Positions 2,598 to 9,161 of a stretch of 64,000 nucleotides of DNA are shown piece after piece. The stretch is from Streptococcus downei MFe28 (GTDB taxonomy: Bacteria > Bacillota > Bacilli > Lactobacillales > Streptococcaceae): positions 1,488,001 through 1,552,000 of the forward strand of contig NZ_UHFA01000002.1 in NCBI RefSeq assembly GCF_900459175.1. The letters are read 5' to 3'. Made by a program: the position numbers and the translations under genes. The notes under the pieces were generated by a model, which searched no databases, was not told the origin of the DNA, and worked only from the letters and a program-made list of their open reading frames with translations. Each line of letters starts with the position of its first letter. Position 1 is the first letter of the stretch.

Positions 2598-3164
2598 CTA
2601 ATCTTCGACTTTTTGAATCTTTCCAGCCGCAATCGGTAGGGTGACATATTGGTCGTAGCTTTCGGTTAATTTACCCCCGACCGTATCAGGAATATCGAGA
2701 CTACGAGGAATGCCATGAATATAAACGACTCGTTTTTCCAATTGCAAATCATCAGTCCCAAAGACTTCCTTGAACTTTGCCTTTAAGGCCTTGAGAGGAA
2801 CTGTTTTCTCATAACTATAGTAGCCCTTGGCATCTGCGACAGGATAGTCGTCATTTGGAATAGTCATCTCATGGGGGGCATTGTCCAGGGGAACCATGGT
2901 CGTGCCCGAGACACTCTCCGTTTCAGGCAAATCAATCCAGCCATCGCCGTTGCTATCTTGAGCTAGGGTTGGAACTTGAGCCTCCTTACCTTCTGGGAAA
3001 CCGTGAAAATGTTCCCAGTGCTGAATATTAGCTGGCGTATCAAACATTTCCAGCTTAATCTTAAGTTCCTCTTCTTCTTGCAGAAATTCGACATAACCAT
3101 GGGCAGCCGTTCCTATCTTTTCAGCATTTAGGGGCTGAATTTTAGCTCTGTATAATTGTGTCAT
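2598..3164 (-). CDS. CHRD-domain-like protein without signal peptide
   Basis: About 188 residues from the preferred start MTQLYRAKIQPLNAEK (ATG 3164, AGGTGA 5 bases upstream); a longer frame to 3197 lacks a comparable site. The pattern GYVEFLQEEEELKIKLEMFD, then HWEHFHGFPEGKE and VVYIHGIPRS, resembles CHRD domains, which have conserved histidines in HxxHxH-like strands. Family members are usually exported, but no signal peptide or membrane segment is visible here, so a cytoplasmic location is implied. It lies 51 bases past the nrd operon terminator. Function unknown. Confidence 0.6.
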   Translation of the reverse strand: MTQLYRAKIQPLNAEKIGTAAHGYVEFLQEEEELKIKLEMFDTPANIQHWEHFHGFPEGKEAQVPTLAQDSNGDGWIDLPETESVSGTTMVPLDNAPHEMTIPNDDYPVADAKGYYSYEKTVPLKALKAKFKEVFGTDDLQLEKRVVYIHGIPRSLDIPDTVGGKLTESYDQYVTLPIAAGKIQKVED

Positions 3165-3215
3165 AATATCACCTGACCCTCCATTCTTTGGGGCCATTTT
3201 AGCATTTACCCAAAG

Positions 3216-3252: not shown

Positions 3253-4203
3253 CTAAAAATCGTAATCCTCTTGGCTCATACTTTCGGCTTCTCCCATCAG
3301 GTAACCGGCCCCAACTTGAGAGAAAAAGTCATGATTAGCCGTCTCAATGGAAATCCCATTCATGACAATGGGGTTAACATCATTGGCGGTTGCATTCTCG
3401 AAGTAAATACCAAAGCCCATATTTTGCAGGGACTTGTTGGCGTTATATTTGACAAAGGTTTTGATGTCATCTTCTAGACCTATGTCACTGTAGACTTCCT
3501 CGGTATAGGCAAATTCATTTTCCAGTAGTTCATCTAGAAAGCCGTACATCCATTTTTGAAAGTCTGCCTGATCTTCTGGTGACAATTCATCAAAGCCCTG
3601 GCGGAACTTATAGCCTAGATAGGTTCCATGGACGGATTCATCACGAATAACTAATTTAATTAGTTCTGCCAAATTAGCCAATTTATTTTGACCACGGTAC
3701 CAGAGAGGAATGAAGAAATTGCTATAGTAAAGGATTCCTTCTAGAAAGATACTGGCGACCATGACCTGCAGGGGGCTACCATTTTGATAATAGTCATTAA
3801 CCCTTTGAGCCTTAAATTGCATCCTTGGATCGTTATCCATCCAGTCGTAGATAGCCTCAATATCCTTAAAGGTATTGAGGGAAATTAAAATGGTTCCATA
3901 GGTCTTGGCGTGAATGGACTCCATAAAGTTGAAATCGCTGAAAACTGCTAGCTCTTTCTGGGTTCGGGCATTCTTTTTGATGGCATAAAGGCCTTCCTCG
4001 GACTGGAGAGTATCCAGCAGAGCTAGGCCTCCGACGGCCTTTTTGACCACTGTCTTTTCTAAGTCAGACAGTTGCTTCCAGTCTAAGAGGTCATTGGAGA
4101 CAGGGACTCTTGTATCCAGCCAGAACTGGGCGGTTGCCTTATCCCAGACGTATTCGTCCAGTTCATCTTCAACCTTCTGCCAATTCATTGTCGAGTGTAG
4201 CAT
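3253..4203 (-). CDS. nrdF: NrdF, class Ib ribonucleotide reductase R2 subunit (complete ligand set)
   Basis: 316 residues. R2 holds the dimetal site and tyrosyl radical that start ribonucleotide reduction in NrdE. All expected residues are visible: D64 (LALLDTLQSEEG), E95 and H98 (FMESIHAKTY), radical Tyr102, E155 (IFLEGILYYS), E189 and H192 (IRDESVHGTYLG). The C-terminus EDYDF fits the tail that docks on NrdE. The gene starts 11 bases after the preceding nrdF-like gene; AAGGAGG overlaps that gene's stop region, so the two are probably translated together. It is much closer to ordinary streptococcal NrdF than its neighbour is. Confidence 0.95.
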   Translation of the reverse strand: MLHSTMNWQKVEDELDEYVWDKATAQFWLDTRVPVSNDLLDWKQLSDLEKTVVKKAVGGLALLDTLQSEEGLYAIKKNARTQKELAVFSDFNFMESIHAKTYGTILISLNTFKDIEAIYDWMDNDPRMQFKAQRVNDYYQNGSPLQVMVASIFLEGILYYSNFFIPLWYRGQNKLANLAELIKLVIRDESVHGTYLGYKFRQGFDELSPEDQADFQKWMYGFLDELLENEFAYTEEVYSDIGLEDDIKTFVKYNANKSLQNMGFGIYFENATANDVNPIVMNGISIETANHDFFSQVGAGYLMGEAESMSQEDYDF

Positions 4204-4214
4204 GACTTACCTCC

Positions 4215-5171
4215 TTAAAAATCATAATCATCATCAGTCATAACGCCCTCAGTCTCCAGAACTGATTTAGCGCTAGAACTGGTCAAATCGTGTTGGCGCA
4301 AGACCTGCAGGGACCGATTAATTCCAGCTAGATTGGCCTGAACAAAGGGATAGACCGATTGGCCAAGGCCGAAATTTTCTAGGATATGGTTGGCTTCTTG
4401 GTGGAGCAAATCCTTGGCCAGAGACTTGGCATCATCTAGCAGAAAATAATCTTCAATCAAGTCTTCTTCTTGTTGGACTAGCTTATCAACAAAGTCTCTA
4501 GCCCAGTTTTCAAAATCCTTAGCTTCATCTTGGTCAACCTCTGTCAAAAGCAGCTTGACCTTGTGTCCCAAATAGTAGCAATGCAGGGATTCATTGCGGA
4601 TGACCATCTCCAGCATGAGGCCTAGACTTGTGAAGCCCTTGCTCTGCCAGAGATAAAGGGGATAGGCCAGCAAACTGTAGTTCATCAGACCTTCTAGACA
4701 GATAGCTGCAAAGCGCTTGGCCAGAGGATCCTTGCTATTATAGATGGCATCAATGGTTTTCAGTCTCTTTTGAAGAAATTCTTGGCCGTCCACCCAATCC
4801 AGCCAGACTTGCAAGTCCCTTTCATCATTGAAGACCCTGAGAATTCGATTATAGGCCTTGGTTGCTACCATTTCGGTAAACTGGAGATTATTGAGGATAG
4901 CGATTTCCTGCTGGGACCGCTGACTATTTCGGATGATTTGGCCAGCCTCAATGGATTGATAGGTAGCCTCTTGGGCTAGAAGAAGCAAGCTGCGATTGAG
5001 TTGGTCCTGCTCCTTCTTGCTCAAGCCTTCCCACTTAGGCTTATCCTCCTCGATAGGAATCCTCGTGTCCAACCAAAAGAGGGAGGTCGCCCTTTCCCAA
5101 ACAGCGTTGTCCAATTCATCCTCAATATGGTTCCAATTGATGGCCTTGTAATACAAATAATTTTTTGGCAT
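4215..5171 (-). CDS. NrdF-like R2 paralogue lacking two metal ligands
   Basis: 318 residues, aligning without gaps to the adjacent NrdF through the ligand region. The aspartate of metal site 1 is Ala69 (EATYQSIEAG) and the site-1 histidine is Ala103 (FTEMVATKAY). E100, E160 (ICLEGLMNYS), E194 and H197 (IRNESLHCYY) remain, as does the radical tyrosine position Tyr107. The Asp before the third Glu is Asn193. The C-terminal tail DDDYDF is kept, so NrdE binding is plausible. This differs from the VPK/QSK class Ie pattern, which replaces glutamates. It may act as a structural or heterodimer partner of the normal NrdF. Start chosen at ATG 5171 behind GGAGGTTAAG. Confidence 0.9.
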   Translation of the reverse strand: MPKNYLYYKAINWNHIEDELDNAVWERATSLFWLDTRIPIEEDKPKWEGLSKKEQDQLNRSLLLLAQEATYQSIEAGQIIRNSQRSQQEIAILNNLQFTEMVATKAYNRILRVFNDERDLQVWLDWVDGQEFLQKRLKTIDAIYNSKDPLAKRFAAICLEGLMNYSLLAYPLYLWQSKGFTSLGLMLEMVIRNESLHCYYLGHKVKLLLTEVDQDEAKDFENWARDFVDKLVQQEEDLIEDYFLLDDAKSLAKDLLHQEANHILENFGLGQSVYPFVQANLAGINRSLQVLRQHDLTSSSAKSVLETEGVMTDDDYDF

Positions 5172-5221
5172 CTTAACCTCCTTAATTATTAAATTTGCCG
5201 ATGGTTCCCAATCTTGCCCTT

Positions 5222-7399
5222 CTAAATCATGCAGGATTCGCAGTTGTTGATGCTTTCAAATTCATCATCCTCAGTATAGGTCCTGACATAATAGAGAGAC
5301 TTAATGCCCTTGGTCCAGGCGTAATTGCGAAGTTTATTGAGGTCGCGAGTGGTCAGATTGGGATGGTCAGGCTTTTTCCATTCATAGAGACCTTGAGGTA
5401 GTTTGGAACGCATGAAAAGGGTCAGACTGAGCCCTTGGTCAACATGCTTTTGCGCTTGGGCATAGATGTCAATAATCTTTCTTTGGTCCATATCATAGGC
5501 AGTCTTATAGTGACTGATGGTGTCATTGGACAGATAAGGAGCGGGATAAAATATGGACCCCACCTTCTTCTCTTGGCGGTTTTCAATCAGCTGAGTGATA
5601 GGATGGAGAGAGGCACTAGTTTCATTAATATAAGAAATAGAACCATTGGGGGCCACCGCCAAACGATTGCGATGATAAAGCCCATCCGCCATAACTGCTT
5701 CCTTCAGAGCCTGCCAGTCTTCTAAACTGGGTAAGTGGATAGTTTCAAAGATTTTTGCGACCTGAGGAAAATCAAAGTGGAAATCATCTTGCAAATACTG
5801 GTCAAAGTAGCTACCGTCAGCATACTTGGAGGCTTCAAAATCATGAAAAACTTGCTTTTTTTCTAGGGCGATTTGATGGCTAGCCTTTAGAGAATAATAA
5901 TTCATGGCTAAGAAGAAGGCATCAACAAATTCTAGGGCCTCCTTTGAGTCATAATTAAGACCATTTAAGGCTAGGGCGGTATGAAGCCCCATAGCTCCTA
6001 GGCCTATGGTGTGATAGAGAGCATTCCCCTTAGCAACGGTGGGGACTTCTTCGATGGACTCGCTATCCGTAACTGTGGTCAAAGCACGCACGGCGTATTC
6101 AATGGACTTACCAAAGTCAGGTGAACGGAGGAGATTGACCATATTCATAGAACCGAGATTGCAGGAGATATCGGTTCCGACTTCTTGATAGGTCAAATCC
6201 CTATTTAATGTCGAAGGCTCTTGCGGTTGTAGAATTTCCGAACAGAGGTTGCTCATGATGATGCGACCCTTGACAGGATTAGAGCGGTTGGCGCTATCGA
6301 TATTGAGGATGTAAGGATAACCGGATTCCTGTTGGAGGCGGGAAATCTCTTGTTCCAATTCCCTAGCATTGATGACCATCTTTTCAATGGCTGGATTAGC
6401 TACTAGCTTATCGTATTCGGCTGTAATATCAACATAGGAGAAAGGCCGTCCGTAAGCTCTTTCGACATGATAGGGATTAAAGAGATACATGGGTTGATTG
6501 GTCTTTAGAAGTTCATAGTATTTATCAGGAACCACCAGACCTAGAGAGAGGGTCTTGACCCGAATCTTTTCGTCGGTATTTTCTTTTTTAGTTGATAGGA
6601 AGGCCAGGATATCTTGGTGGAAGACATTAAGATAGACAACACCCGCGCCATTGCGTTGACCTAGTTGGTTGCTGTAGCTAAAGGAATCTTCTAAAAGTTT
6701 CATAACAGGTAGAACTCCTGAGAAAGCATGGGCAATCCGCTTGATGGGTGAACCACTAGCCCTCAGATTGGAGAGGTTGACGCCGACACCCCCACCTATA
6801 CGGGAAAGCTGCAGGGCCGAATTAATCCCGCGACCGATAGAGAGCATGGAGTCATTAATGTCAATGAGGAAACAAGAAACCATCTCCCCTCGCCTTTTCT
6901 TACCGGCGTTTAAAAAGGTGGGCGTGGCTGGCTGGTAGCGTTGACTAATCAATTCATCCACCAAATGACGGGCCAATTCTCGATTGCCAGCAGCCAAATA
7001 GAGGGCATTAAAGACAACCCGATCCTCGAAATTTTCTAGGTATTGCTGGAGGTCATCTGTCTTCATGGCATACTGGTTATAAAATTTATAAGCTGCCATA
7101 AAGGATTTGAATTTAAAACCGTATTGATAGGCCTCCTCAAAAAGCTCTTGGATAAAGGCCTTATCAATACCGTTACCTTCTTTGGAGTAAGCTGATAAAA
7201 CATCCTGATCGATATAGTCATGCTCAATCAGGTAATCAATCTGGTTAGAGAAACTCTCAAAAGATTTGGTCTTGGGCTTGATCTCATGTTGCAGATAATC
7301 TTCTAGGGCTTCTTGGTCATAATGTAGTGGAATTTTCCCAGCGACTGGGATATTGACCATGTTATTTAAGACAAAATAATCTTGACTAGTTTTGGACAT
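5222..7399 (-). CDS. nrdE: NrdE, class Ib ribonucleotide reductase catalytic subunit
   Basis: 725 residues. NrdE reduces ribonucleoside diphosphates to deoxy forms in the cytoplasm using a thiyl radical passed from NrdF. Visible hallmarks are MVSCFLIDINDSM and DISCNLGSMN (the redox cysteines), NLCSEIL (active-site Asn-Cys-Glu), the tyrosine pair in LYYVRTYT and the C-terminal NCESCMI, whose CxxC exchanges electrons with a redoxin. The start overlaps the end of nrdI by 14 bases with AAAGGAG inside nrdI. No nrdH redoxin gene is adjacent. Confidence 0.97.
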   Translation of the reverse strand: MSKTSQDYFVLNNMVNIPVAGKIPLHYDQEALEDYLQHEIKPKTKSFESFSNQIDYLIEHDYIDQDVLSAYSKEGNGIDKAFIQELFEEAYQYGFKFKSFMAAYKFYNQYAMKTDDLQQYLENFEDRVVFNALYLAAGNRELARHLVDELISQRYQPATPTFLNAGKKRRGEMVSCFLIDINDSMLSIGRGINSALQLSRIGGGVGVNLSNLRASGSPIKRIAHAFSGVLPVMKLLEDSFSYSNQLGQRNGAGVVYLNVFHQDILAFLSTKKENTDEKIRVKTLSLGLVVPDKYYELLKTNQPMYLFNPYHVERAYGRPFSYVDITAEYDKLVANPAIEKMVINARELEQEISRLQQESGYPYILNIDSANRSNPVKGRIIMSNLCSEILQPQEPSTLNRDLTYQEVGTDISCNLGSMNMVNLLRSPDFGKSIEYAVRALTTVTDSESIEEVPTVAKGNALYHTIGLGAMGLHTALALNGLNYDSKEALEFVDAFFLAMNYYSLKASHQIALEKKQVFHDFEASKYADGSYFDQYLQDDFHFDFPQVAKIFETIHLPSLEDWQALKEAVMADGLYHRNRLAVAPNGSISYINETSASLHPITQLIENRQEKKVGSIFYPAPYLSNDTISHYKTAYDMDQRKIIDIYAQAQKHVDQGLSLTLFMRSKLPQGLYEWKKPDHPNLTTRDLNKLRNYAWTKGIKSLYYVRTYTEDDEFESINNCESCMI

Positions 7400-7880
7400 A
7401 GGCTACTCCTTTTGTTTTTGTTGCTGTTTGAAAAACCTTGACCAGCTTGTCGCCAATTCTCTCTAGGTCTTCTTGGCTTCCCCGCAATTCGAATTCGTCC
7501 AAGACTGGAAAACCAAAATCCTGAGCATATTGGTGGGCCGTTAGGCAGAATTGCTTATTAAAATTGCGGTTCCCACTACCAACAATTCCCAGGCAATAAG
7601 TGGCATTTTCCCCATGAGCAATCAATCTTCTCAAAGGGGTGGTCAATATTTCTTGATAACCATTGTCTAAACCATTTCCACCCTCTAAATAAGATGGAAG
7701 AAAGCTAAAATAGGGCTTATCAATATCGAAAATGGCAGGCTGGCCCTTCTTGACCAGACTTTTAAGATTGGTGGTCTCTAGCTCTAAGCCATATTTCTGT
7801 TTAATATGAGCAGCCAAGCGATGAATAAAATCTTCGGTATTTCCGCTGAGGCTGATATAAAAGATAGCAATTGGTTGCAT
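7386..7880 (-). CDS. nrdI: NrdI, flavodoxin-like activator of NrdF
   Basis: 164 residues beginning MQPIAIFYISLSGNTEDFI, with the FMN phosphate loop SLSGNT, and later GIVGSGNRNFNKQFC, typical of NrdI. NrdI supplies oxidant to build the manganese-tyrosyl radical cofactor in class Ib R2. First gene of the operon nrdI-nrdE-nrdF'-nrdF. Two NrdR-type boxes lie within 75 bases of the start. Confidence 0.95.
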   Translation of the reverse strand: MQPIAIFYISLSGNTEDFIHRLAAHIKQKYGLELETTNLKSLVKKGQPAIFDIDKPYFSFLPSYLEGGNGLDNGYQEILTTPLRRLIAHGENATYCLGIVGSGNRNFNKQFCLTAHQYAQDFGFPVLDEFELRGSQEDLERIGDKLVKVFQTATKTKGVAYVQN

Positions 7881-7950: not shown

Positions 7951-7978
7951 TTATATTCTATACTAGAGAAAGTCGTAA

Positions 7979-8000
7979 AAAATTGATGCTAGTCAATTTT
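7979..8000. promoter_or_regulatory. FNR/FLP-type palindrome
   Basis: AAAATTGA and TCAATTTT form perfect arms around a 6-base spacer, giving the TTGA-N6-TCAA form of an FNR-family site. It lies 44 bases before the Crp/Fnr-family gene and about 100 bases upstream of nrdI, so autoregulation or joint control of nrd is possible. Inference from motif and position only. Confidence 0.55.
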
Positions 8001-8043
8001 CTCTTTATGAGATAGATTTTAAATAAATTGAAAGGAGTTCATC

Positions 8044-8709
8044 ATGGAAAATGACCACTGTGTCAATAAGGTTCCCCTCTTCAACCATTTGACTCCAGCA
8101 GAGCAGGCAGAAATCCAGTCCCTAGTTTATCACCGCTCTTATAAGAAGGGAGAAATTATCTTTTCTCCTCAAAATCCCGAACAGCTAACCATTATTGCCT
8201 CGGGGAAAATGAAGGTTTACCACCTTTCCTCTCAAGGTCGCGAACAGCTGATTCGGATTGTCGGTCCAGGTGACTACGATGGTGAAAATTACCTTTTTGG
8301 CCTAAAAAATAAGGCCCTCTATGGTGAAGCCTTAACAGATACAATGATTTGTTGTCTACTGCAGACAAGGTTTGCGGATTTACTCAAGAAATATCCCCAG
8401 TTAGGCTTGAAACTTTTGGACCTGAATGCTCAGAAGACTGTCGAGCTAGAAAATCAGACCCAGCTCCTCGGTCTGGACAAGATTGAAGACAGACTCCTCT
8501 TTTACTTGGCCGACCTTGCAGAACCGGGACATCAAGAGACCATCAAAATCCCCATCCCCTTAAAAGAAGTCGCTAATTACCTGGGGACCAACCCAGAAAC
8601 CCTCTCGCGAAATTTCAAAAGCCTGGAAAAGGAAGGTCTGATTTCAAGAAAGATTCGCAAGGTGGAGTTGGGCGCTAAATTTTGGCAGAGACTAGAAGAC
8701 ATGAAATAA
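8044..8709 (+). CDS. Crp/Fnr-family regulator, FLP-like
   Basis: 221 residues with an N-terminal cyclic-nucleotide-binding-like beta roll (about residues 10-120) and a C-terminal winged helix containing VANYLGTNPETLSRNFKSLEKEGLI as recognition region. There is no four-cysteine iron-sulfur motif. Cys6 and the pair Cys103-Cys104 resemble the disulfide-forming cysteines of Lactobacillus casei FLP, which suggests a thiol redox switch. Good ribosome site GAAAGGAG. Divergent from nrdI and close to an FNR-type palindrome. Targets are unknown. Confidence 0.85.
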   Translation: MENDHCVNKVPLFNHLTPAEQAEIQSLVYHRSYKKGEIIFSPQNPEQLTIIASGKMKVYHLSSQGREQLIRIVGPGDYDGENYLFGLKNKALYGEALTDTMICCLLQTRFADLLKKYPQLGLKLLDLNAQKTVELENQTQLLGLDKIEDRLLFYLADLAEPGHQETIKIPIPLKEVANYLGTNPETLSRNFKSLEKEGLISRKIRKVELGAKFWQRLEDMK

Positions 8710-8741
8710 GCACTGTAAGTTTAGGTCCAGAGTCGAATCCC

Positions 8742-8770
8742 TTGCAAATAGAGGCCTAGCAACCTATAAT
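8742..8770 (+). promoter_or_regulatory. Sigma-A promoter of the DUF1304 gene
   Basis: TTGCAA, 17 bases, TATAAT. It sits between the regulator stop and the next gene, so the DUF1304 gene has its own promoter. Confidence 0.8.
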
Positions 8771-8804
8771 AGATAAGAATTTATAAGAAGCGAGGAAAGC
8801 TAAT

Positions 8805-9161
8805 TTGTCTATTTTCACGACTGTTCTATCTATCTTGGTAGCCCTGGAATTTTTCTACATCATGTATCTGGAGACCTTTGCCACGGCTTCGGCCTCAACG
8901 GCCCGAGTTTTCGGCATGAGCCAAGAAGAGCTCAAAAATAAAAATCTCAATACCCTTTTCAAAAATCAAGGAGTCTATAACGGTTTGATTGGGCTGGGCA
9001 TCCTTTATTCCTTGGTTTATAATCCCAGCATGATTTTGCCTATCATGGTTTACATCATTGCAGTTGCAGCTTATGGGGCAGCGACTTCCAACCCTAAGAT
9101 CCTCTTGACCCAAGGTGGACTAGCCATCTTGACTGTCCTAGCCCATATTTTCTTGGGCTAA
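8805..9161 (+). CDS. DUF1304 family small membrane protein
   Basis: 118 residues from a TTG start with GAGGAAAG upstream. Starts MSIFTTVLSILVALEFFYIMYLETFA and includes FKNQGVYNGLIGLGILYS and AYGAATSNPKILLTQGG, characteristic of DUF1304. Four hydrophobic segments fill nearly the whole length, so it is an integral membrane protein. Function unknown in the family. Confidence 0.85.
   Translation: MSIFTTVLSILVALEFFYIMYLETFATASASTARVFGMSQEELKNKNLNTLFKNQGVYNGLIGLGILYSLVYNPSMILPIMVYIIAVAAYGAATSNPKILLTQGGLAILTVLAHIFLG

Follow-up and report, generated by a model that had tools for sequence, protein, structure and literature searches.

A degenerate NrdF encoded beside an altered, ligand-complete NrdF in Streptococcus downei and other lactic acid bacteria: a possible class Ib counterpart of yeast Rnr2/Rnr4

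In the class Ia ribonucleotide reductase (RNR) of yeast, a chain with a full metal site (Rnr2) stands beside a chain without key residues (Rnr4), and an alpha2-beta-beta' assembly with the deficient chain as chaperone has been proposed (PMC3824934, in the part available to us). The same part describes R2_e2 (PfR4), an apicomplexan clade of deficient R2 proteins on long branches, whose frames are open and whose R1-binding end is conserved; it was found in an alpha2-beta-beta' complex (PMC3824934). Class Ie R2 proteins (VPK, QSK) have a class Ib-like operon and an altered metal site and also occur in Lactobacillales; the gene orders given in the available part of that account do not include the tandem of R2 genes described below (PMC11846895). 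Nor is the pair described in the available parts of two accounts of class Ie (PMC11846895, PMC8463856), and a search limited to open-licence literature found no description of a class Ib counterpart of Rnr2/Rnr4 in bacteria. A Lactobacillus pentosus plasmid pair of the same layout is tabulated, in the part available to us, as two beta subunits (PMC6662855).

The stretch of DNA analysed here (the window) comprises 64,000 nucleotides of Streptococcus downei MFe28 and carries the operon nrdI-nrdE-F1-F2 on the minus strand (3253-7880), F1 and F2 being two adjacent R2 genes. The first gene, nrdI (7386..7880, minus), encodes the activating flavodoxin (NF002714, 201.3 bits, cut-off 190) and nrdE (5222..7399, minus) the class Ib R1 (TIGR04170, 1044.1 bits, cut-off 750). 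They are followed by F1 (4215..5171, minus, 318 aa), a degenerate R2 by ligand alignment and NrdF score and our proposed beta' chain, and by F2 (3253..4203, minus, 316 aa), a ligand-complete class Ib R2 (nrdF). The 11 bases between the two R2 genes given in a preliminary description of this DNA were read again in the sequence, from the F1 stop codon (4215-4217) to the F2 start (4203); the AAGGAGG ribosome-binding sequence of F2, also read from the sequence (4210..4216, minus), overlaps the F1 stop codon. The source genome holds another R2 with nrdE elsewhere (locus L004) and a class III nrdD, and the operon is therefore an additional RNR. Unlike the class Ia pair of yeast, F1 and F2 are of bacterial class Ib, adjacent to one another with nrdI and nrdE, and mobile on plasmids. 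The apicomplexan R2_e2, in contrast to F1, is eukaryotic class Ia and has no operon pairing with a special active R2.

A Crp/Fnr-type regulator (8044..8709, plus; Pfam cNMP_binding and HTH_Crp_2 above their cut-offs) lies divergent to the operon, and also in loci L148, L226, L227 and L228. Read towards nrdI, the palindrome TTGAC-N4-ATCAA (7983..7996, unstranded) lies 116 bases before that gene and is a candidate operator, offered as a lead only. Sequences with at most one mismatch to TTGAC-N4-GTCAA were found in 7 of 21 loci, those in L005, L007 and L009 being present only under a longer nrdI frame. Downstream of F2 are two more minus-strand genes. One (2598-3197) encodes a 199-aa protein that matched no family and has relatives close to the pair in L216 and L226; the other (2193-2480) encodes a cupin-like protein of 95 aa scoring under the Pfam cut-off. 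The window also holds leuC, for the large subunit of 3-isopropylmalate dehydratase (588-1992, minus), in two overlapping frames: 588-1817 covers the later part of the family model and 1651-1992 the first part.

F1 matches solved NrdF chains along its full length (best 4n83, E 6.3e-47), and an R2 helix-bundle fold is predicted for it. Residues are compared below by E. coli R2a numbers, which we take to be D84, E115, H118, Y122, E204, F208, D237, E238, H241 and Y356; numbers for E. coli NrdF were derived from a gap-free alignment offset of 3. Alignment with F2 and the solved NrdF chains bears out the alanines that the preliminary description had reported at the site-1 Asp (Ala69) and the site-1 His (Ala103), as well as the asparagine beside the third Glu (Asn193, directly before Glu194). 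Asn193 occupies the position of the relay Asp, presumably that of D237, so the radical relay of F1 is damaged as well as its metal site. Trp33, Glu100, Tyr107, Glu160, Glu194 and His197 are retained in the same alignments. The C-terminal NrdE-binding tail had also been listed among the kept parts; the Glu ligands, the second His, Tyr107 and the terminal DYDF are indeed there, but the relay Tyr of the tail is missing, at the position of F2 Tyr301 (which we assume to be the counterpart of Y356).

Class Ib NrdF chains (S. sanguinis 4n83, E. coli NrdF) resemble both F1 and F2. However, F1 falls below the NCBIfam NrdF cut-off (TIGR04171, 190.8 against 355 bits) and, although the radical Tyr is kept, lacks the complete set of six ligands and the tail's relay Tyr by which a class Ib NrdF is recognised. 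Membership of class Ie was rejected too: that class replaces three glutamates (by VPK or QSK), whereas the glutamates are retained in both F1 and F2 and it is Asp and His that F1 has lost, a different pattern, as had been proposed. F1 is without the residues for a dinuclear site, as expected of a chain of the Rnr4 type, although the residues lost are other than those lost in Rnr4. Its nearest matches are NrdF proteins, which suggests an origin separate from that of Rnr4.

The partner chain retains all six ligands, the radical Tyr and the relay residues, including the tail Tyr, and scores above the family cut-off (NCBIfam NrdF, 412.1 bits, cut-off 355), as class Ib NrdF proteins do. It had been described as fully normal, which does not stand, since Tyr159 lies over the metal site where unpaired relatives have Phe (28 against 113 sequences). 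With the offset of 3 from the gap-free alignment, this position corresponds in E. coli NrdF to F162, the Phe over the metal site, and presumably in R2a to F208. In the F208Y variant of E. coli R2a the site hydroxylates that Tyr. Four residues past E204, every ligand-complete R2 row collected carries one of two residues, Phe in 113 cases and Tyr in 29 (28 distinct, the window's F2 being present twice); this letter defined the two groups, and pairing was looked up afterwards. A degenerate R2 lies within 1.5 kb upstream in 72 of 74 locus instances with Tyr and was seen in longer stretches for the other two (L141, L142), whereas 149 of 151 instances with Phe have no R2 upstream and two have too little sequence, many of the instances being repeats of one place. 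Because the rows are related by descent, the association of Tyr with pairing amounts to one event. F2 differs from class Ib NrdF chains in Tyr159 at the capping Phe and in 22 further positions, together the 23 that separate paired from unpaired R2 rows; Gly156, Ile157 and Asn162 are those close to Tyr159 in the chain.

A database search returned 72 homologues of F1, 68 of them degenerate and 4 canonical. Of the 68 degenerate proteins, 67 have Ala, Ser or Thr in place of the site-1 Asp, the last being unreadable there, and the recurrence of the degenerate pattern across the whole family rules out chance or sequencing error. Alanine at both site-1 positions occurs, among the 72, only in the window's F1 and in P0001 (97% identical), and the two alanines were rejected as a family mark. 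The family is marked instead by the loss of the site-1 Asp, by Asn or Gly in place of the relay Asp, and by a tail that has lost its Tyr. One record, P0064, gives Erwinia sp. CPCC 100877 as its host, remote from the other hosts, and is possibly mislabelled or contaminated.

Two types can be told apart, both predicted to adopt the R2 fold and both keeping the R1-binding tip. In the N-type (80 distinct rows) D237 is Asn throughout and the H118 position is Asn in 64, His in 13, Ala in 2 and Ser in 1. The G-type (8 rows) has Gly for D237 in 8/8, retains H118 in 8/8 and E204 in 6/8, and has kept E238 and H241 in none. The position of Y356 is occupied by another residue in 79/80 N-type and 8/8 G-type rows, in a tail alignment with many gaps; a Tyr is aligned there in P0067 and stands elsewhere in the tail of P0007, P0008 and L148. 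These patterns bear on what F1 might do alone. As E115, E204, E238 and H241 are retained in 80/80 N-type rows, F1 could be a single-metal site-2 protein, one that donates metal to F2 or assists its assembly, or else a mononuclear-site enzyme. However, the G-type occupies the same operon place without two of the site-2 ligands, and metal binding is thus not a function common to both types. We consider this reading improbable, and of the mononuclear site once suggested for this protein there is left a possible single site-2 metal in the N-type, the window's F1 included. More improbable still is that F1 forms an unusual radical of its own, as in metal-free class Ie. The radical Tyr (Y122) is retained in 77/80 N-type rows, but it is Phe in 3/80 and, in the G-type, Tyr in 2/8 and Cys, Ile or Val in 6/8; moreover, the relay Asp and tail Tyr are lost, and the Glu ligands that class Ie replaces are kept in F1.

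With regard to distribution, F1-type matches (>450 bits; next 277) were found in 9 of 197 genomes of the genus, and F2-type R2 proteins (at least 80% identity; next 57%) in the same 9. Among 395 genomes of the order, 8 had the F1-type and 15 an F2-type of at least 66% identity (next 60%); the 7 of these 15 without an F1-type have a G-type partner in the same place. In three of the genomes ranking next for F2 (58-60% identity) the R2 is single. Beyond the order, the window's genome was the sole match in 398 genomes of the class and 398 of the phylum at E 1e-88, a limit that would miss the G-type. A search of 72,556 plasmid records gave 43 with the F1-type (31 Lactococcus, 12 Enterococcus), 212 with the F2-type (43 at 80-90% and 169 at 60-80% identity) and 174 with a G-type match at E 1e-45 (165 at 60% identity or more). 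In Lactiplantibacillus, 112 plasmid records had the F2-type and 114 the G-type, and the tallies by genus agree. The tandem arrangement was present on all four plasmids whose gene order was read. A phage origin was rejected: in the phage collection the top match, among the best 10 of 584 records, reached 32.8% identity. One 82 kb contig labelled viral (L215, viral_contigs) carries a G-type partner followed by F2, and may be a plasmid.

The order nrdI-nrdE-F1-F2 was found in 23 of 24 paired loci, a count that includes several contigs twice, and at every locus examined the ligand-complete R2 downstream of the degenerate gene belongs to a single monophyletic type. Locus L148 reads nrdI-F1-F2, nrdE being absent between nrdI and F1. 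In L005 (4833-6990) and L140, which are one contig seen twice, nrdE is split into two frames with F1 and F2 intact. The spacing between F1 and F2 ranges from 80 to 930 bases in three lineages, and tight translational coupling of the two is therefore not general. Another gene is inserted in two of them: the gap of 930 bases in L007, L009 and L142 contains a thiol peroxidase gene, and that of 270 bases in L005 a small Fe-S assembly-type gene (7965-8222, Pfam PF01883). The thiol peroxidase gene was identified in a family scan run on L007 only (8319-8807; NF001808, 208.1 bits, cut-off 123).

In an unrooted tree of 61 rows thinned by identity (16 of the 29 paired F2 rows, 10 of the 113 unpaired and 35 of the 90 degenerate ones), one branch (96/89) sets the degenerate rows apart from the rest, and another (100/100) does so for the paired F2 rows. 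The single grouping of the degenerate rows is less sure, given long branches and the odd make-up of some rows. Omega was compared in the 17 of 23 pairs with estimates for all three genes, and ranged from 0.09 to 0.24 for F1, 0.02 to 0.10 for F2 and 0.03 to 0.13 for nrdE; the pairs are not independent, and all four that include the window's own genes were saturated. F1 exceeded F2 in 17/17 pairs. This faster change, together with a stepwise loss of ligands, is what a decaying duplicate would give. However, omega is far below 1 in 17/17 pairs, and the frames are open at the examined loci, in several genera and on plasmids. Purifying selection acts on the relatives of F1; the relaxed selection or dispensable decay that the preliminary description had allowed for is contradicted in them, and F1 as a decaying gene was rejected, as the least probable of the readings weighed here.

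NrdF monomers swap their N-termini (PMC6754363, in the part available to us), and the arms of the two chains differ. Mean identity to the arm YYKAINWN is 0.97 in unpaired R2 proteins (96/111 rows parsed), 0.97 in the N-type (80/80), 0.88 in the G-type (8/8) and 0.47 in paired F2 (24/28); one scan used YKAINWN as its pattern, so that some of the N-type and unpaired rows are biased towards this arm, while the G-type rows, found by position, also carry a near-canonical arm. Body identity to the unpaired consensus, from a comparison in which some rows were misparsed, is 0.29 for the N-type, 0.32 for the G-type and 0.59 for paired F2. The pattern is a crossed one: the degenerate chains combine a canonical arm with a diverged body, and paired F2 a changed arm with a conserved body. 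If the arms pack on the opposite chain, this is what a heterodimer predicts.

We therefore favour, with a probability of about 0.65, the reading that F1 is a dedicated, obligate, non-radical beta' chain of a class Ib RNR, working in the manner of yeast Rnr2/Rnr4. F1 and F2 would form a beta-beta' heterodimer with one radical per dimer, carried by F2 only. The F2 cofactor would be made with NrdI, probably with Mn, while F1 may stabilise F2 and aid cofactor assembly, its tail anchoring the dimer to NrdE. The Tyr over the metal site of F2 would be part of the same specialisation, altering the making or the protection of the cofactor. Such a dimer would build half-of-sites asymmetry into the genes. 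One-sided engagement and half-of-sites behaviour have been reported for class I holoenzymes (PMC8463856, in the part available to us), so that activity need not suffer in a dimer of which a single chain is live. The likeness to Rnr4 drawn in the preliminary description is strengthened by pairing with one type of R2, by purifying selection, and by loss of the relay with retention of the tip, while the heterodimer itself is one that we infer from gene pairing, selection, relay loss and arm pattern. Two separate homodimers would likewise be compatible with the tandem order of the genes and their equal numbers, and the faster evolution of F1 counts against a beta' chain.

Among the alternatives, an F1 homodimer might dock on NrdE through its tail and transfer no radical; acting as a competitor or reserve holder, it would be a built-in regulator of the RNR. 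The tip for R1 binding is kept in both degenerate types while the relay is lost, and in a shared operon the dose of F1 would track NrdE. However, such a regulator predicts neither the crossed arms nor the special changes of paired F2, and a 1:1 competitor beside F2 would cost activity; we consider it unlikely, though less so than the single-metal protein. A wider proposal, which we put forward tentatively and rate as doubtful, is that the beta-beta' pair represents a new class I RNR subclass: an obligate heterodimer of NrdF' and NrdF with a single radical centre per dimer, a Tyr-modified or Tyr-protected cofactor (for example with a second redox Tyr, or DOPA formed in place) and genetically fixed half-of-sites behaviour, mobile on plasmids of lactic acid bacteria.

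If the heterodimer is true, F1 and F2 would be a bacterial class Ib counterpart of yeast Rnr2/Rnr4. The N-type and G-type, at different stages of ligand loss, reveal which parts of an R2 are important beyond its chemistry. Moreover, the Tyr over the metal site of F2 is a natural form of F208Y, and the active partner may hold a cofactor state not yet recorded. Genes of this kind are carried on plasmids of food bacteria.
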